Below are positions 12,219 through 26,897 of a DNA stretch of 30,746 bases, in pieces (position 1 is the stretch's first letter; every line of letters begins with the position of its first letter). Source of the DNA: a virus. The stretch spans positions 1-30,746 of IMG/VR virus record IMGVR_UViG_3300048027_000304; one strand, 5' to 3'. The position numbers were made by a program, and so were the translations under genes. The notes under the pieces were generated by a model, which was not told the origin of the DNA, ran no database searches, and saw only the letters and a program-made list of their open reading frames with translations.

Positions 12219-14246
12219 TTATGGGGTGGTTGTTTGGAATGTTGGTCCGTTGATTAGTGTGCCGTTGTAGCTGTTCACTGAATTATCGGTGACTGCTGAA
12301 CCGGTTCCGCTGTCGTTGTCTCCCATACGCCACCAAGCCACCAGATTATTGGCTGAACTGTAAAGCTCAGGCTGGCCGCTAAGGTCAACGGGTTTACCGT
12401 CATTATAAATTGATTTCACTTCGTTTGCGGTCAGAGCAGAATCCCAAATCGCAACCTCATCGATGTTTCCATTGAAGAATCTTTGAGCCGCATTAGCTCG
12501 CCTTCCGATTGTAGCAAACGAGAAATTAGTTCCAGCAGAATAGGCGTTGCTTGTCGTTGTCTCCAGCACACCATCAACATAAATCTTTTGTGTCGTCGCC
12601 GTGACAACTGCAACTGCGTGATGCCAATTTCCATCATTAACCGTTGATGTTCCATATTGGTCGTCGTCCACAAAATCAGACCAACCGACCTTGTTCGTAA
12701 TTACCGATAGAATACTATCATCTCCTCCACCACCACTTGAGATGTAGCTTATTAATGTTCCTTCGCTACCTGGGCCGCCGTAGGATGCTGTTGTCTTGAA
12801 CCAAGCCGATAGCGTGTGAGTGTTACCAAGGACCGGAAGCGTCATTGACATATAGTCATCAGTCCCATCGAAGGCAACGCTGTAATCGTTTTGGATTGGA
12901 GTTGGCAAATCATAAACTTGAGTTTTTGCTCGGATGTATTCACGAACGTCGTCAGCTTGGGCGTCGGTGATGGTCGCTGGGAAGAGTGCGAGGTATTCTA
13001 GGTCGATTGCGGCGTTGAAACCACCAGTGGTAAAAGCAGAAATTTTAAACTCTTCAGAACTAAGAACGCCGGAAAACGTGCCAGTTCCATTGTCTTTATC
13101 GGCATTGTTTACCATGCTAAATTGTGACGAATTCTTAAAAGAACTTTCAAACAGCACATCACCCAAAGAGTCATCGAAGAGACCGGGGGCAGGGAAAAGT
13201 GTGTTTCCGTTATAATTGCTTCTGTAACCGTTGGTTAATGCGTTCCTGTAAACTGCAAATCCACCCGCTGCATTATCCGCTGCCCCTGTGGAGTTCATGC
13301 TAAAAATTCGTCCGTGACTTTCTCCACCATCACCAAGCACACTAAAGGCAGCAAACATGTAACCACCAGTTACCGTCTGGTTTAACAAGCCGTCCATGAA
13401 GTCGTTAACACCATCGAACCGCAACACAGGCTTCTTGATAATCGTGGCTGGGTCATTCCCTGACTGGTTGATTGTTACCACTTGGCCAGTCGCGCATTTG
13501 AACTTGGTGTCCCCGTGGCGCACGTTGGTGGCCGTGAAGTCAACGTCGAGGACTGGTGTGCCTGATGCTGTGCCGTTGTCCCAAATGACTGCGCGAGATA
13601 TTTTACCTCTTAGCGTGTCTGCGGTAAGTTGAGAACCAAGGTAAATAGGGCAACCCGCATTATATAACGGGCCAGATACAACAGGCTCTGTATACAGAAG
13701 GCTATAACCTGACCCAGTGTCTACCCAATATTGAAGACTAGTGCCATTTCGCGTAACACGAATCCCAACTGTATCTGTGGGAACTGCCAATGCGCTTTGA
13801 TATACCAACTGAGTGGAAATATCAGCAGCGGTATAAAGGTAAACCCTCACCTTCCCTTGCGGGTTGACAATTATAATAAACGAGCGGTTTGACGTGTTTT
13901 CATATTGAGCTATTAATGTAATGTTAGACAACGGGCGCACAGACCCTGCATCAAGTCCCTCAAACTGAAACGCGAAGTCATCAAGCGAGCCGATTGGGTC
14001 AGGAACGCTCGCATAGTTCCCAGTAACACCAGACAGATACAGATAGCCTTTCCCATTAGCGTCCAGCGGCAACGCTTTAGGCTGGTTTAGGGCTGTCCCT
14101 TGTTTCGCATCGCCGCCCTTTTGTGAACCGCGAGCCAAGTTGCGAAGAACCGGAACTGGCTCAAGGAAGTCAGCGGTCGTCAGGGCTTCTGCTAGAACGT
14201 CACCAGATGTCGCGCTGGAAGTCAGTGTGGATAGATTGAGTGCCAT
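12219..14246 (-). CDS. Large adhesin with three concanavalin/LamG-like modules
   Basis: At 675 residues this is the largest tail-region protein. The N-terminal 60 residues look like a virion-attachment segment. Three beta-sandwich modules follow. Module 1 (about 65-230) contains FAFQFEGLDAGSVRP and IRVTRNGTSLQYWVDTGSGY. Module 2 (about 270-440) starts VLRFDGVNDFMDG. Module 3 (about 455-610) starts YSVAFDGTDDYMSM and contains DGNWHHAVAVVT and GNIDEVAIWDSALT, the classic LamG_3/pentraxin-like signature. The ending NNLVAWWRMGD...YNGTLING is also typical. Such proteins bind surface polysaccharides and are probably the main receptor-binding or virion-decorating protein. Confidence 0.82.
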   Translation of the reverse strand: MALNLSTLTSSATSGDVLAEALTTADFLEPVPVLRNLARGSQKGGDAKQGTALNQPKALPLDANGKGYLYLSGVTGNYASVPDPIGSLDDFAFQFEGLDAGSVRPLSNITLIAQYENTSNRSFIIIVNPQGKVRVYLYTAADISTQLVYQSALAVPTDTVGIRVTRNGTSLQYWVDTGSGYSLLYTEPVVSGPLYNAGCPIYLGSQLTADTLRGKISRAVIWDNGTASGTPVLDVDFTATNVRHGDTKFKCATGQVVTINQSGNDPATIIKKPVLRFDGVNDFMDGLLNQTVTGGYMFAAFSVLGDGGESHGRIFSMNSTGAADNAAGGFAVYRNALTNGYRSNYNGNTLFPAPGLFDDSLGDVLFESSFKNSSQFSMVNNADKDNGTGTFSGVLSSEEFKISAFTTGGFNAAIDLEYLALFPATITDAQADDVREYIRAKTQVYDLPTPIQNDYSVAFDGTDDYMSMTLPVLGNTHTLSAWFKTTASYGGPGSEGTLISYISSGGGGDDSILSVITNKVGWSDFVDDDQYGTSTVNDGNWHHAVAVVTATTQKIYVDGVLETTTSNAYSAGTNFSFATIGRRANAAQRFFNGNIDEVAIWDSALTANEVKSIYNDGKPVDLSGQPELYSSANNLVAWWRMGDNDSGTGSAVTDNSVNSYNGTLINGPTFQTTTP

Positions 14247-14249
14247 GAG

Positions 14250-15518
14250 TTAGAGATTGTCTGAGTGATAAGGCCAGTAGATGAGGCGTTTGATGTGGCC
14301 GTTGAGTTTCTGGGCGTTACCGTCATCCTGACGCCCGCCAATCGCTATCCCCGTAGAAGTTGGTAAAGTCGGCGACGCCACGTTAACCTCATTACCACCA
14401 TTGACTGAGACTTTAGAACCATTATTTTTTAACGTCACAGCAAGTCTATAAATTTGATTATTTGGAAGAGTTATACTTGTGGGCGCTTGTCCCGTTCCTC
14501 CTTGGGTTACGGAGACAAAGTTACCCTCTACCGGAATTCGATTAGATGTCGTGCCGTCTCCAATAGTGAAATTATAGATTGAACCTGCGTCTTGCTTCTG
14601 TGCTTCCAAATAAATCGTCCCCTCGCTCTGGTTGTAAAAGTCCGTGAAGGCACTGCCAGTTATCACAAGGTCGTCAGCGTTGCGCGTTCTTGCTGCGGCG
14701 TCACCGCCTGATGTGGGTATGTAGGACGTGGCTATGCCTGTCTCTAGCTGTGCGCCCCATATGTAGACTTCTTCGCCTGTGCTAAAACTGCTAAAGCCAC
14801 CAAAAGAAATACCGGTCGCCGCATTTGCGTCAGCGGTAGACGTTAAAGTAAATCTTTGCCACTCATCAGTCACAGTGATGTTTTTATACCGTCCCCCCTC
14901 GCCTTCGTTTTGAGGGAATCCCGGAGAACCCAATGCTATAGCTGTTTCAAGCGAACCGCTTATTGTCTTTAAATAAAAACTAACAGAGTATGTCGTGCCA
15001 GAAGCGACCGTAAAGGTGTTTTGTAAACTGCTGTCAGTAGCATTAGCTTCTAACTTTGAAGCGTTCATTGAACCATCAGGAGCAGAAAACCCGCTTGAAA
15101 GTGTTACGTTGTTTTTACTCCAAGCTGATTGACTAAAGTCTTCGCTGTAAGGTAACAAGTTCGTCGCACTCGGCTCCACCAGAATCATCGGCACTCCATC
15201 AACGTGGTCAACGCGCACCGTGTTCGCTGGGGCTGACGCTATGTTACCGTTGAAATCTGTGAACGTGGCGGTTCCTGCCCTTGTAGCCGTAATAACATCA
15301 AGCGTGTCTTGCTTGCTTGGGTCTAGGTCTAGCGTTGGGTTCTCCAACGTGCCTATCATTGAAGATTGGGCATCAAAGAGAAGGTAAGGGTCAAGGTCGT
15401 TCGGATGGAACGATTTAACACCTTTATCAAATAGACCAGCACTAGAAAACAGGCCGGAAGCTGCTTGCAATCCGGCCCGTCCAGTTCCAATCCCAGCTTT
15501 GGCACTTTGAATCTTCAT
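14250..15518 (-). CDS. Tail fibre / receptor-binding protein with carbohydrate-binding-like domain
   Basis: The 422-residue protein has the recurrent phage signature TRAGTATFTDFNG then GVPMILVEPSATNLLPYSED followed by FSQSAWSK. This introduces a carbohydrate-binding (CBM_4_9-like) sandwich at about residues 120-265. The C-terminal part (about 285-420) has a concanavalin-like pattern (GTIYLEAQ, YRLAVTLKNNGSKVSVNG, GHIKRLIYWPYH). The N-terminal 70 residues, Gly/Ala-rich then FHPNDLDPYLLFDAQSSM, probably attach it to the virion. It likely binds host glycans together with the next, larger adhesin. It overlaps the preceding gene by 4 bp. Confidence 0.78.
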   Translation of the reverse strand: MKIQSAKAGIGTGRAGLQAASGLFSSAGLFDKGVKSFHPNDLDPYLLFDAQSSMIGTLENPTLDLDPSKQDTLDVITATRAGTATFTDFNGNIASAPANTVRVDHVDGVPMILVEPSATNLLPYSEDFSQSAWSKNNVTLSSGFSAPDGSMNASKLEANATDSSLQNTFTVASGTTYSVSFYLKTISGSLETAIALGSPGFPQNEGEGGRYKNITVTDEWQRFTLTSTADANAATGISFGGFSSFSTGEEVYIWGAQLETGIATSYIPTSGGDAAARTRNADDLVITGSAFTDFYNQSEGTIYLEAQKQDAGSIYNFTIGDGTTSNRIPVEGNFVSVTQGGTGQAPTSITLPNNQIYRLAVTLKNNGSKVSVNGGNEVNVASPTLPTSTGIAIGGRQDDGNAQKLNGHIKRLIYWPYHSDNL

Positions 15519-16522: not shown

Positions 16523-18016
16523 TTATTGGGAAACAGGTTGCTTTGATAGTTGCGCTTGCTCTCGGAAAGCATCAACTAGCTCTTTGTTTAAAACAACTAG
16601 CTGCCGCTGTAAGTCGGTTTGTGTTTTTTGTAGGTTTAACTCACCAGATACACCGCCACCGCCACCTATGGCTTGCATGGATGATACAGCGGTAATTGAT
16701 GAGCGAGTCATTGCAGCATTCAAACTTGATTGTATTTCACCAACTTGCCCCATTGTGCGGTCAATACCTTCTTGAGCTTTCTCAAGAGCCAATTGCTTTT
16801 CTTTTTCTTGCCTTTGCTTTTCAAGTAATTCTAGCCGCTCTCTTTCTGCATGAATGGCAGCTTTTGCCCTTTCATCATGCTCTTTTTGCATTCGTGCTTG
16901 TTCTTCTCTGAATTTCTTTTCTGCTTCCCATGCTTTATCTGCTTCTTCACCAAATTCCTTTTCAATCCTTTCTTCCTCCGACATTTCTGCGGGTTTTTCC
17001 GGTTTAAGAAAATCAGGTATTTCAGTTAAAGGTGAATCTTTTTTTTCTACAGTTTCGGGAAACAAATCACCAAGCAAACCTAAAACTTTTAACCCCGGAA
17101 CAAGGTTGAGTAAGGTTTCTAGTTGTTCGCTTGAGTCTGCAACAACAGATGCAAGTGAGCCAAATCCATCAACTGCATATTGTATGTGTTGACCAAACGT
17201 CTGGATGTGTTTTGAAATATTTTCAAAATCTAAATCATTCATTGCCGTTACAGCATCTTGAATTACAGGAAGAAATGCCTTGCCGACAGAAACGGTTAAT
17301 TCTTCAAATCGAGCTTTTAAGATTTTCTTTTGTCCAGCTAATCCGTCGGAAGTTCTAGCAAAATCTCCTTGTGCATCTTTGGTCTGTTCAAGAATCAAGC
17401 TATAGGCGGCTAAAGCTTTGGTTGCTGGACTTAATGCACCCACTCCATCATAAAGCCCTTTAGATAAAGCTTCAGCTTTTAAAGTAGCTTCATTTAAAAT
17501 AACAGAATATCTAAGAATTGGCTCTGACGAGCCGCGCAATGCTGCTGTAATAGCATTAATTGCATCTTCAGTTGTTGTGTTGTGGAAACTTCCTAAATCT
17601 GCCGCCAGTTGCGTCATTGATTTAGACATATTGGCAGCTTCCTGCTGCCCCATGCCTATCGTTTTAAATAGGTTGCCAAATGTTCCGGTGGCAGTCATTG
17701 CAGCAGTTTCAGAAAGCCCCATTGATTCAACAGCATTTTGTGCAAAAGCACGAATATCATCAGATGCTTGTCCGAAAATTACTTGGCTTTTTGAAACTTC
17801 TTCATTCAAGTCTGAAGCCGCTGTTACGGCGGTGCTTATCATTTGCGGTATGTCTCTTACAGCACTAGATAAGCCATCAAGAAGCTTGTGGCCTACCCGC
17901 TCTTTAAATCCTTTGGCAATAGACTTAGCGATGCTCTGAGTCTTCTTTTCAAAAGACTTTAACTCTTTTGCAGCCTTTCTTGAGTCTGCTCCTATGCTTA
18001 CCTGTACGCCAGCCAT
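16523..18016 (-). CDS. Tail tape measure protein
   Basis: This 497-residue protein starts MAGVQVSIGADSRKAAKELK, and its N-terminal two thirds (KSQVIFGQASDDIRAFAQNA, LGSFHNTTTEDAINAITAAL, LNEATLKAEALSKGLYDGVG) match the typical TMP helical repeat region. The segment about residues 345-430 is a long charged coiled coil. It ends with a Gly-rich linker and a final helix. TMPs set tail length at roughly 0.15 nm per residue, which would predict a tail of about 75 nm. It lies directly after the G/GT chaperone genes, whose products normally bind it. The ATG is 15 bases after the frameshift-product stop. Confidence 0.9.
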   Translation of the reverse strand: MAGVQVSIGADSRKAAKELKSFEKKTQSIAKSIAKGFKERVGHKLLDGLSSAVRDIPQMISTAVTAASDLNEEVSKSQVIFGQASDDIRAFAQNAVESMGLSETAAMTATGTFGNLFKTIGMGQQEAANMSKSMTQLAADLGSFHNTTTEDAINAITAALRGSSEPILRYSVILNEATLKAEALSKGLYDGVGALSPATKALAAYSLILEQTKDAQGDFARTSDGLAGQKKILKARFEELTVSVGKAFLPVIQDAVTAMNDLDFENISKHIQTFGQHIQYAVDGFGSLASVVADSSEQLETLLNLVPGLKVLGLLGDLFPETVEKKDSPLTEIPDFLKPEKPAEMSEEERIEKEFGEEADKAWEAEKKFREEQARMQKEHDERAKAAIHAERERLELLEKQRQEKEKQLALEKAQEGIDRTMGQVGEIQSSLNAAMTRSSITAVSSMQAIGGGGGVSGELNLQKTQTDLQRQLVVLNKELVDAFREQAQLSKQPVSQ

Positions 18017-18031
18017 AATTTTCTTTTAAAG

Positions 18032-18666
18032 TCAAAGTTGACTTTCTTCAGCCTGTAACCTTTCAATTTCACGGTCTAACTGCCAATCAGTGTAACCGCC
18101 ATTTTTTGGCTCCATTCCACTAGCCCATGCCGCACAAGCCGAAAACGAAAACACCTGTTTTAAAGGTAGTTCGTGAATTACGTAGTTTGGCTTCCACTTA
18201 TATTCCCGACAAACCGCCGAAATGCCGCTAAGAATCCACCCGAATGAGTTTTTTTTTGAGCGTTGGATGTTTTGGATTCCATCTCAACTACGTTAGTCAT
18301 CGCACCGTAGTAGTGGAAAATTATATCTTGGGCGAAATCTTTATATTTGCTTGCAGGAATTGCTGACAAAAAAGAATAAAGCTTTTCTTCAAACTTATCA
18401 GTTCTAATTAATTCATGCAGCAGCTCTGACGACCTTGTAAAAACAAATAAAGCAATCCCTAAATCCGTAGCAGTCCACCCTTCATTTTTATTTTTAATGA
18501 GTGGGTGGTCTAGGTTTTCAAGAATCAAACAATGCCCGTAAGTAACTTCAACAAGGTCAAACTCACCAATCTTTTTACCCCTTGGCAGAAAAGCATCTAA
18601 AACTTCTTCGGGAGTTCTCCCTTGTGTGTTTTCGATTGCTTGCTGTAGCTGCTCAAGGCTCGCCAT
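18032..18666 (-). CDS. Tail assembly chaperone GT-like product made by -1 frameshift
   Basis: The zero frame is read to base 18250 (139 codons). A one-base slip back on the run of nine A then continues in the -1 frame as NSFGWILSGISAVCREYKWK and later YVIHELPLKQVFSFSACAAW, ending at TGA 18034-18032. The total is about 211 residues. The added T-like part (72 residues) has no stops and fills what is otherwise a 160-bp gap before the tape measure. In lambda-like phages the GT form links the tape measure to the tube protein. Frame and stop positions were traced by hand. Expression ratio is unknown. Confidence 0.75.
18178..18666 (-). CDS. Tail assembly chaperone G-like (zero-frame product)
   Basis: The 162-residue protein sits between the tail tube and tape measure genes, where tail assembly chaperones are found. 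It is helical, beginning MASLEQLQQAIENTQGRTPE and containing WTATDLGIALFVFTRSSELL. The start overlaps the tube stop (TAATG). Near the end, at codon 138-139, the minus strand has nine consecutive A, and the alternative frame after this point is open for 72 more codons. This product is therefore the shorter G-type partner of a G/GT pair. The zero-frame tail (about 23 residues after the slip site) continues to TAA at 18178. Confidence 0.78.
   Translation of the reverse strand: MASLEQLQQAIENTQGRTPEEVLDAFLPRGKKIGEFDLVEVTYGHCLILENLDHPLIKNKNEGWTATDLGIALFVFTRSSELLHELIRTDKFEEKLYSFLSAIPASKYKDFAQDIIFHYYGAMTNVVEMESKTSNAQKKTHSGGFLAAFRRFVGNISGSQTT
18249..18257 (-). promoter_or_regulatory. Slippery site for -1 frameshift
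   Basis: Nine A on the minus strand, read in zero frame as CAA-AAA-AAA-ACT, contain the heptamer A-AAA-AAA in the correct phase for tandem -1 slippage. After slipping, the next codon is AAC. The site lies near the end of the G-like frame and at the start of the open -1 frame. Confidence 0.75.
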
Positions 18667-19049
18667 TAGCTGAAGCTTGGGTAATGTGTAACCGTGAAGC
18701 TTACGGTTGCTGTATTTGTGCCAGCATGAGCAATACTTGCTGACTCAACGAAAGCTTCTCCGGTGTTTAAATCAACACCATCAATTGCAGCGGCAAATGT
18801 TACTGCTGTTCCTTTGGCTGGTAAATCTGGAGATGAAGCAGTCACTAAGCTTGAAAACGTGACAGTGTTTTTTGCACCGTGGTCAACTCTGGCAACCATA
18901 TCACCGTCTTCATCTGCAATTTCGGAGACATTACCGTCAGTTGAAATTTCAAAGTCTTGAACGATTCCAGCAACAAGCGAGTCTGCTACTGTTTTCCCTG
19001 CTGCTGGGATGCCCCAAGATACGGTTGCGCCGTTAATTGTAACTGCCAT
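18666..19049 (-). CDS. Major tail tube protein
   Basis: The 127-residue beta-rich protein (MAVTINGATVSWGIPAAGKT, VQDFEISTDGNVSEIADEDG, ASIAHAGTNTATVSFTVTHY) has the pattern of small tail tube proteins, including the ...DFEIS...D...G hairpin signature common to many Siphoviridae-type tubes. It is placed after the tail terminator and before the G/GT chaperones, the canonical location. The ATG lies 19 nt after a TTTTGAC element. It would stack as hexameric rings along the tape measure. Confidence 0.75.
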   Translation of the reverse strand: MAVTINGATVSWGIPAAGKTVADSLVAGIVQDFEISTDGNVSEIADEDGDMVARVDHGAKNTVTFSSLVTASSPDLPAKGTAVTFAAAIDGVDLNTGEAFVESASIAHAGTNTATVSFTVTHYPSFS

Positions 19050-23590: not shown

Positions 23591-25477
23591 TTATGCACCC
23601 AGTGCGTCAAGCATTGCTGCGAACGACTTAGGACGGCGAACACCACCATCATAGTAGGTGTTAGCAACCAAGGTGTGCAAGCCAGTCTTGGCGTTAGCAC
23701 TGTCGCGGAGAAGCTCAAGGTTGAGCCCGCCCCAGTAGCCAATCACATAGTCAGCGAAGTTACCGAAGAAGATAGCAGATGACAAAGATTGGTTACCTTT
23801 TGTTAATGTGCGGCTAACTGCGTTAGTGAACTCAGCGCGGTATCCGTTAATGGTGTTCGGGCTTCCATCGGAGATGATGAAGTTGCCTTCAACTCCAGAA
23901 GTCTGCTTGCTGGTCTGCTTGAGTTTCGCACGGATTTGGCCGTTTGTAACATAAGCAAGTCCACCTTGCAGAGCGTTCTGAGCGTCAACCTTCTCTTCAA
24001 GAGAAACGATGTTAGCATAGTTAGGAGCAGCTCCGTTGGTTGCACCAACAACTGAACCAATTCCAGAAGCTCCGGCAACGCCGTTTGCTTCGTTGGTTCC
24101 ACCACCGTGGAAGAATGCCTTTTCTTGAGTCTCAAGCATCTGAGCAGTCAGGTGTCCGCGAAGCATTGCTTCAATTGCGGAAGATGACTGAGCTAAAAGC
24201 TGGTCACTGATGTCAATGAATGCAGGAAGTCGCTTAGGAGTAAGGCTCAACTGTGAAGTGGTTGGGCTAACTTCGTCGGCTGCTACATTCTCGGCTTTTT
24301 TAGCGGCTGCTGTTCCGGCTGCAAGAATCGGAATGTCAAGGTTGCCAGAGAGTCCGGTAAGAACAGTAGCACCAAGCTGATTCATTACTGATGAAGCAAA
24401 GAAGTCATCAAGAAGACCAGCTTTATCAGTTGCGATTGTGTTACCGCCTTGGTTGGCAGTTCCTGCGGTCATGTCACGCTTGTTGACGTAGAACGAAGGA
24501 AGCATGATGCCACGAGACTGACCGATGCCAGCGTTCTTAGCTTCACGAATTCCTTCTTCAACAATCTCACGCTCGGCACCGTCCAGCTTTGCACCAGAGT
24601 AGTGAGCGCGAAGAGCGGTTCCAAGGTCGAAACGGCCAAGGTCACGCTTTTCAGACTTGGAAAGGTCGGCTGGGACAAACTCAGCTTTCTTTTCGCAAAC
24701 TTTGTCGAATGCAGCCTGACGGAAATCGTCAGCAGATACGCCTTCAGCAACAGCTTTGCTTACATCAAGGCTGATGCCGCGCTCTTTAGCTTGCTCGGCT
24801 ACTGCTTGGATGTTTGCGATGCGGCTGCGCTCGGCAGAAACAGCACTGTGACGCTCTGCGTTGATGTCAACACGGGGAGCTTCGTTGATAACCTCCACGG
24901 AGCGTTGCTCAGGAGCCGATGGGATGTCTTTATTTTCGGACATATTTTCAGTTTTTAAATTTTGGTTTTCCGTTGTTTTGTTTTCCATTCCCCTGCCAAC
25001 TCCCACGGAGTCGTCGGCTGGAATGCTCACCAAGCTGAGTTCATATGGCTCCCAATCAGTTGCCCGGATAGACTCCCGTCCCCCGTCCATCTTTTCAGAA
25101 TCCATTTCGTGGATTCGATAGCCGACAGAAACCAATCGCCGAATGCCATCTTTCACGTCTTGGAAAATCTCTTCGGCTCTTGCCGATTTTGAAAACTTAA
25201 CGACTGCACGTCCTTTTTTGTCGTCGTCAATCCATGCCCGCTCTACAACACCAATCTGGTCGTTGCGGTTGTGTTCCATCAGGAATGCCCCGCCGTTGTT
25301 TAGACGGTCAAGGCGAACGCTTTTAGAGCGATGGTCTAGCACTTCAGTGCCATATCCGCGCTCAACTTCGGCTTCAGAAGAAAACGCAATTTCAATCGTG
25401 CGGTCGTCTTCGTTGATAGCCCGTTGATTTAACTCAAACGAGCGGTGTGACAGTTCTTCAACCTTCTTCTGGCTCAT
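23591..25477 (-). CDS. Fused prohead protease and HK97-fold major capsid protein
   Basis: This 628-residue protein joins two functions. Residues about 1-165 are a prohead serine protease (S78/U35-like): LMEHNRNDQIGVVERAWI carries the catalytic His (about 69), and WEPYELSLVSIPADDS carries the Ser (148 or 151). Residues about 165-340 are a charged scaffold-like delta region. Residues about 345-628 are the HK97-type capsid domain (TDKAGLLDDFFASSVMNQLG, then SLTPKRLPAFIDISDQLLAQ and a final VRRPKSFAAMLDAL). The protein would self-assemble, then be cut to mature coat. The ATG at 25477 was preferred to a TTG at 25498; both overlap the portal gene. Confidence 0.9.
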   Translation of the reverse strand: MSQKKVEELSHRSFELNQRAINEDDRTIEIAFSSEAEVERGYGTEVLDHRSKSVRLDRLNNGGAFLMEHNRNDQIGVVERAWIDDDKKGRAVVKFSKSARAEEIFQDVKDGIRRLVSVGYRIHEMDSEKMDGGRESIRATDWEPYELSLVSIPADDSVGVGRGMENKTTENQNLKTENMSENKDIPSAPEQRSVEVINEAPRVDINAERHSAVSAERSRIANIQAVAEQAKERGISLDVSKAVAEGVSADDFRQAAFDKVCEKKAEFVPADLSKSEKRDLGRFDLGTALRAHYSGAKLDGAEREIVEEGIREAKNAGIGQSRGIMLPSFYVNKRDMTAGTANQGGNTIATDKAGLLDDFFASSVMNQLGATVLTGLSGNLDIPILAAGTAAAKKAENVAADEVSPTTSQLSLTPKRLPAFIDISDQLLAQSSSAIEAMLRGHLTAQMLETQEKAFFHGGGTNEANGVAGASGIGSVVGATNGAAPNYANIVSLEEKVDAQNALQGGLAYVTNGQIRAKLKQTSKQTSGVEGNFIISDGSPNTINGYRAEFTNAVSRTLTKGNQSLSSAIFFGNFADYVIGYWGGLNLELLRDSANAKTGLHTLVANTYYDGGVRRPKSFAAMLDALGA

Positions 25478-26897
25478 CGACAATCTCAGAATTGTCAATT
25501 TGGTCAGGGTCTAATTTCAAGCCATAGCTTGCAGCAAGTTCTTCATCTTCTTTAACCTTCGCAAGCACGTCATAGATGTCATCCCCAGCTTCGGCAATGA
25601 TGTCGCGAAGTGGTTTGATGCGGTTACGCATAGCAAGAACAGCGGCTTCCATGTCTTTTTTGGGGTCAACCCAAGCCCAGCGGCGGCCCCGGAATTCTGG
25701 AGCGTTGAACTTGAAAAACTTGTCGAATGGTAAACCAAGGCGGCCAGAAAGAAGCTCAACTTCAAGCCAAGCTTCAAACACTGGTTCCAGAACGTGGTCA
25801 ATCATCATGCGCTGCACGGCTTTCCAGACTTCGCGCTCTTCAATTAGCCCGGCTCTGATGCTTGAGTAGTTTACTCCTTCCAAGTCATTACTAAGAGCGT
25901 TGTAACTAATGCCAAGAGAAGTAGCGACTCCACGAAGGCAAGATTTGACGAAATCTCCATAACCAGAATTTGGGTGGTTGGTGTCCCAGCTTTTGAAATC
26001 AACGCCAGCAGGAAGTTCTTCGATTGTGCCGGGTGATGAATCAACAGGCAGATTGCCGTCATCATCAATCTCACCTGTCCAGCCGTCCGGTGTGGCTTTA
26101 GTGAAAAAACCCATCTTTGCGGCCCCGGTTCTAGCTGCAACAAGTTCGGCTTCTGCATAGCCGTCTAACATCTTGAGCCTGTTCATTGAACTAACAAGCC
26201 AAGGAATGCCACGGCTTTGCTCTGGTCTCTCAGTCTTAAACGGGTGAATGATTTCTTCGGCTGGCACTCTGATGCGACGCTTGAAATCAGCGTTGAATTG
26301 AGAATCTCCGGGGTGGTTGCCAAGCAAGTGGTAAGCAACTGGTCGGCGGTATGAATCAAACTCAACACCAAACCGGATTTCGTTACCGTTTTCAGCCCGG
26401 GCGTTGTAACTATCATCAAGCAAGTCGGCTTCAAGAATCTGCAAGCATAACCCGGTATTTTTCTTAATCATACGAATAAGAACTTCACCATCACGGGCAA
26501 TGCAGCGAAGGATTAAGCGTTGAACGTCAACCCATGAGTGCCGTCCTGTGACTTCGCAGTTGCCGACTTTGCTCCATTGCTTCCAAGCTCTCTCAATAAT
26601 ATTGTTTGCGATTTCGTCAAGCTGTCCACTCGGCTCTTTTGCTCTTACCTGTAAAGATACACCCTTTTCGCCGAGCGTGTTGTTTTCTAGACTACGCAAA
26701 AAACCTTTTACCCATTCATTGTTGCGTTCTAAGTCACGCGAGCGGTCACGAAGAATTGGAAGCTGCCCTTTAAGCTCACCATCTTGCGACAGGCAAGCAG
26801 TAATCCAGTCGAGCGTCAGACGGCTTGACTGGGTTGCGTTAAATCTGCGAACGGCTGTTTTGGGCGATGAGAATTTGCGCTTTAGATATTGAATCAT
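25458..26897 (-). CDS. Portal protein (lambda gpB-like)
   Basis: The 479-residue protein starts MIQYLKRKFSSPKTAVRRFN and has features of lambda-family portals: LRDRSRDLERNNEWVKGFLR, WKQWSKVGNCEVTGRHSWVD, RLILRCIARDGEVLIRMIKK, and RVPAEEIIHPFKTERPEQSR. It forms the dodecameric DNA channel at one head vertex. The ATG at 26897 overlaps the gpW-like stop by 4 bp (ATGA). The longer frame starting at 26969 would run through the gpW-like gene and is rejected. It overlaps the capsid gene by 20 bp. Confidence 0.93.
   Translation of the reverse strand: MIQYLKRKFSSPKTAVRRFNATQSSRLTLDWITACLSQDGELKGQLPILRDRSRDLERNNEWVKGFLRSLENNTLGEKGVSLQVRAKEPSGQLDEIANNIIERAWKQWSKVGNCEVTGRHSWVDVQRLILRCIARDGEVLIRMIKKNTGLCLQILEADLLDDSYNARAENGNEIRFGVEFDSYRRPVAYHLLGNHPGDSQFNADFKRRIRVPAEEIIHPFKTERPEQSRGIPWLVSSMNRLKMLDGYAEAELVAARTGAAKMGFFTKATPDGWTGEIDDDGNLPVDSSPGTIEELPAGVDFKSWDTNHPNSGYGDFVKSCLRGVATSLGISYNALSNDLEGVNYSSIRAGLIEEREVWKAVQRMMIDHVLEPVFEAWLEVELLSGRLGLPFDKFFKFNAPEFRGRRWAWVDPKKDMEAAVLAMRNRIKPLRDIIAEAGDDIYDVLAKVKEDEELAASYGLKLDPDQIDNSEIVDEPEEG

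Follow-up and report, generated by a model that had tools for sequence, protein, structure and literature searches.

Organization of the G/T region

The window, by which we mean the entire stretch of DNA analysed, is a linear virus contig of 30,746 bases, in which no tRNA genes were found. Its packaging and head module lies on the minus strand and is lambda-like, and it is followed by small tail genes, the G-like gene, the tape measure gene and the genes of further tail proteins (Table 1). The phage is best explained as an uncultured lambda-like siphovirus. The tail proteins encoded further downstream carry concanavalin/laminin-G-like domains, and the 675-aa protein is probably the receptor-binding part. 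In the same region, the DNA of positions 15114-15411 (minus strand), inside the ORF at 14250-15518, is ~81% identical to a hypothetical protein gene of MedDCM-OCT-S45-C18 (AP013544.1), an uncultured marine phage of the Autographiviridae, which is a phage type quite different from that of the window. This patch looks like an exchanged tail or receptor-binding module.

Table 1. Features of the window discussed in the text. All are on the minus strand.
Feature	Position	Strand	Remarks
Terminase large subunit (GpA)	28983-27160	-	Lambda-like module
Portal, lambda-family	26969-25458	-	
Protease-capsid, apparent fusion in one ORF	23591-25498	-	Peptidase_S78, residues 71-165; Phage_capsid, residues 360-629
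Probable tail tube protein	18666-19049	-	Assigned by position; stop codon TAA overlaps the ATG of G
G-like ORF	18178-18666	-	162 aa, 0-frame product; homologues in relatives 39-78% identical
Putative slip site	18249-18257	-	CAA AAA AAA ACT, heptamer A_AAA_AAA; invariant in 19/19 contigs
Overlap (rest of G in the 0 frame past the slip site)	18178-18248	-	About 22 codons in the window
T region, -1 frame	18032-18250	-	72 codons plus TGA; predicted to be read only as a G-T fusion (211 aa)
Tape measure protein	16523-18016	-	497 aa, directly downstream of T; PHROG 1535 (tail length tape measure), E = 1.5e-27
Tail ORF	12219-14246	-	675 aa; C-terminal concanavalin/laminin-G-like domain PF13385, E = 4e-23

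An earlier note on this DNA had proposed that a programmed -1 frameshift generates a pair of tail chaperones from this locus. Re-reading of the sequence confirmed exactly the run of nine A's, its phase, its coordinates and the 72-codon -1 frame on which that proposal was built. The run (18257-18249, minus strand) is preceded by a C at position 18258 and followed by another C at 18248, and in the ORF starting at the ATG at 18666 it is read in the phase CAA AAA AAA ACT. Near the end of G, an overlapping -1 ORF can thus be entered at a slippery site: slippage by -1 at A AAA AAA gives access to 72 sense codons from position 18250 (NSFGW...ESQL) up to the TGA at 18034-18032 (minus strand), and the predicted GT fusion contains the junction peptide ...AQKKNSFGWILSG.... 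Beyond a core that extends to about residue 130, G has a variable linker, and the residues at the slip site are QKKT.

The tape measure ORF starts at position 18016, 15 bases past the TGA of T. Without T, a gap of 161 bases (18177-18017) would separate G from the tape measure gene, as the earlier note had stated. Close to its beginning, the T region offers no start codon that could be used, in line with the suggestion that ATG-based gene callers miss it. The same note placed the pair between the tube and the tape measure genes. For the tape measure protein, this was borne out by the match to PHROG 1535; the tube protein is a candidate assigned by its position, without homology. The product of ORF 18666-19049 matched no family in Pfam or PHROGs, and a comparison with a tube-like ORF of the uncultured relative L002 gave no support for its identity; it is probably the tail tube protein.

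Nine-A runs are common at the composition of the window: dinucleotide-shuffled sequences contained on average 4.9 of them, and the window itself contains one. A run of nine A's is therefore not rare in itself, and the case for a frameshift must rest on conservation.

Conservation of the nine-A run and the T frame

Relatives were sought among the IMG/VR viral contigs with the T peptide and then with a T profile, as well as with a tape measure profile. G alone as a query retrieved no relatives from the viral contigs, so that all relatives were recovered with the T and tape measure queries. T homologues were found in 17 other contigs; they are about 56-86% identical over the length of T, and the similarity begins right at the slip site. 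One further contig, L055, was fetched by the tape measure protein alone, so that neither T nor the slip site played a part in its selection; it has the same slip site. In all 19 contigs, window included, the site is TCAAAAAAAAAC in identical phase, and T starts right there. Some of the 19 contigs are near-identical, leaving about ten or eleven clearly distinct sequences. A scan for A/T runs in 18 stretches of 6-31 kb each, which left out the separately inspected L055, showed that the nine-A run is the sole A/T run of at least nine in each of them.

The earlier note had named stops in the -1 frame of relatives as a possible objection. None came to light, since the T frame is open in all 19 contigs. 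The 0-frame tail of G varies in length: counted from the slip point it has 6, 23 or 29 codons, and counted after the slip site 5-28 codons in relatives. T is also the better conserved of the two parts: between the window and its distant relatives, identity is 55-65% for T versus 39-52% for G, and for the nearest relative these values are 88% versus 78%. A product of the +1 frame was considered and rejected; this frame closes after 6-47 codons and is not conserved.

The two bases in front of the nine A's, TC (18259-18258, minus strand), are invariant in all relatives. The T is a synonymous third codon position (GCT, ACT, GGT), and the heptamer needs neither of the two bases.

Selection acts on both frames

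For pairs of sequences that align without gaps, we analysed the codon positions at which substitutions occur. Ahead of the run, the changes fall mainly on third positions of the 0 frame; once past it, they fall mainly on those of the -1 frame. Between the window and L013, the substitutions are distributed 50:18:7 upstream of the run, 2:1:5 in the overlap and 8:2:14 after the overlap; for L016 and L021 the corresponding distributions are 60:21:8, 4:1:10 and 9:6:23. The third-position pattern of the -1 frame holds right after the run, even where the 0 frame is still open. Contigs L017-L022 have a stop codon in the -1 frame 12 bases before T, and another in the 0 frame six codons past the site. 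These stops on both sides confine the frame change to about 33 bases around the nine A's. The switch in substitution phase and the presence of the site in 19/19 contigs indicate that the slip site and the -1 frame are kept by selection in the relatives; judged by these sequence patterns, the -1 frame is real coding sequence.

Similarity searches and structure predictions for G and T

Neither G nor T gave a convincing match to Pfam or PHROGs, a match to solved structures, or a real relative among named phages. A search of genome contigs with the T profile gave no match and hence no clue to a host or a prophage. The predicted structure of G is of moderate quality (pLDDT 69, pTM 0.62), and a fold search with this model returned no significant match; the matches in BFVD were weak, the best ones being two unnamed phage proteins (E = 0.22), with a "tail assembly chaperone" at E = 7. 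The model of T is poor and of low confidence. Low sequence similarity is usual across the class of G/GT proteins (PMC5009743), and we infer the chaperone role of the present pair from its position and architecture.

A probable lambda-type G/GT gene with a putative ribosomal frameshift

Taken together, we consider it highly likely that this is a tail-assembly chaperone gene of the lambda G/GT type, in which ribosomes slip by -1 on A_AAA_AAA. The lambda-type reading of the earlier note is supported by the position of the gene, the -1 direction, the slip site, the conserved T frame and the switch in substitution phase, and is further backed by the lack of a conserved alternative start and by relatives with the same arrangement. 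According to the review by Atkins et al., -1 frameshifting in G/GT genes is conserved in a wide range of long-tailed phages, even though their sequence similarity is low (PMC5009743). The locus very probably joins this known class with a protein family that goes undetected in current databases. Automated annotation misses such a G/GT family entirely, because there is no convincing profile for G or T and T lacks a start codon.

In this model, most ribosomes would stay in the 0 frame and synthesize G (162 aa). A fraction of them would move back by one base at the heptamer A_AAA_AAA, where tRNA-Lys would shift its pairing from one AAA to another, and would then read 72 more codons in the -1 frame to produce GT (211 aa). 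Following the example of lambda, the G portion may attach to the tape measure protein and the T portion may bring in tail tube subunits, and the efficiency of slippage would set the G:GT ratio. In lambda, the two products are made in a 30:1 ratio (PMC5009743), and for an HK97-like chaperone cluster 6-7% frameshifting was measured (Antonov et al., PMC3711429). Tested cassettes with 7, 9 and 11 A's gave 10, 40 and 63% frameshifting, respectively (PMC3711429). Going by the values for nine versus seven A's, the G:GT ratio of the window may be lower than that of lambda.

The same two proteins would also arise if it were RNA polymerase that slips, such that a share of the mRNAs acquires an extra A in the nine-A run and is translated conventionally. 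We regard this as unlikely, but several observations point towards it. Runs of nine A or T slip efficiently during transcription in E. coli, and dnaX of Thermus uses a nine-A/T run (PMC5009743). The run at the frame change is exactly nine A's in 19/19 contigs, and is the sole such A/T run in each stretch scanned, which fits the A/T run of at least nine that is a feature of genes with transcriptional slippage. The upstream TC and the first A of the run are kept, though the heptamer requires none of them, and the two Lys codons of the run are AAA without exception, yet AAA accounts for only 34-74% of the Lys codons in these phages. Moreover, no conserved stimulator of ribosomal slippage was seen: no downstream RNA structure is conserved, with z-scores scattering around zero (the lowest being -2.4, for L014), the RNAalifold covariation term downstream of the slip site is nil, and there is no upstream Shine-Dalgarno sequence consistent across the scanned stretches.

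Against this, all nine A's are already fixed by the heptamer together with a Q conserved in the 0 frame and an N conserved in the -1 frame, so that no base singles out polymerase slippage and the Lys codon usage gives only mild support. Longer A runs also raise frameshifting in the tested cassettes (PMC3711429). We consider ribosomal -1 slippage on A_AAA_AAA the most likely agent for two reasons: this gene is known to work by that route, and the site of the more distant relatives, C_CCA_AAA, is one for tandem slippage and not long enough for slippage by the polymerase. A mixed situation, in which the present clade makes G/GT wholly or partly by polymerase slippage and the distant relatives by ribosomal slippage at C_CCA_AAA, is likewise improbable. 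If true, it would mean that the mode of recoding has changed within a single tail module. With a strict nine-A site, about ten distinct sequences and no conserved stimulatory structure, the clade offers a clean case for the question of polymerase slippage in phage chaperone genes.

Far less probable is that T is a separate protein started within the -1 frame, by reinitiation or from a leaderless start, and not fused to G. In its favour are the conservation of the -1 ORF and the existence of phage genes that start at a GTG or ATG inside overlaps; conservation, however, sets in with the very first codon past the slip site (NxFGW), where there is no start codon. The first in-frame candidates in the window, GTG at codon 33 and ATG at codon 46, both lie within the conserved part, and the -1 frame of L017-L022 is open for no more than 12 bases ahead of T. 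Finally, homopolymers invite errors and the window comes from a metagenome, but a frame break caused by faulty sequencing of the run, an objection raised in the earlier note, by faulty assembly or by decay of the gene can practically be dismissed, given the identical run in 19/19 contigs with varied flanks and G identities down to 39%, the maintenance of both the 0-frame and the -1-frame stops, and the different selection across the site.

Comparison with known systems

The dnaX gene of Thermus thermophilus also has a nine-A run giving -1-frame products (PMC5009743). It is a bacterial DNA polymerase gene; for the window, RNA polymerase slippage is a candidate reading.

Microbacterium phage Isperia (gp20/gp21) and Arthrobacter phage Joann (gp16/gp17) each have an annotated, joined two-piece tail assembly chaperone with the T frame in the same -1 direction, next to a tape measure protein homologous to that of the window. 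Neither chaperone was matched by G or T of the window as query. Isperia has CCCAAAAG in the chaperone overlap, and that of Joann contains no standard heptamer.

The uncultured relatives L002 and L003 encode tape measure proteins that are 50-52% identical to that of the window over the matched part; they too have a -1 T frame, and their substitutions switch phase at the slip site when the two are compared with each other. Unlike the window, they have a C_CCA_AAA slip site (L002:4204, L003:4176), a shorter T of about 48 codons with another sequence that is conserved between the two, and one extra gene between T and the tape measure gene. The annotated phage Isperia would likewise change frame at C_CCA_AAA.

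The slip site of lambda is G_GGA_AAG, which differs from A_AAA_AAA within nine A's in the window. In addition, G of the window continues past the site in the 0 frame for about 22 codons, and neither G nor T matches the named chaperone profiles. Nevertheless, the window shares with lambda a gene located before the tape measure gene, a -1 frameshift near the end of G, predicted in the window, and a T without a start codon, in a genome that also has a lambda-like terminase and portal.
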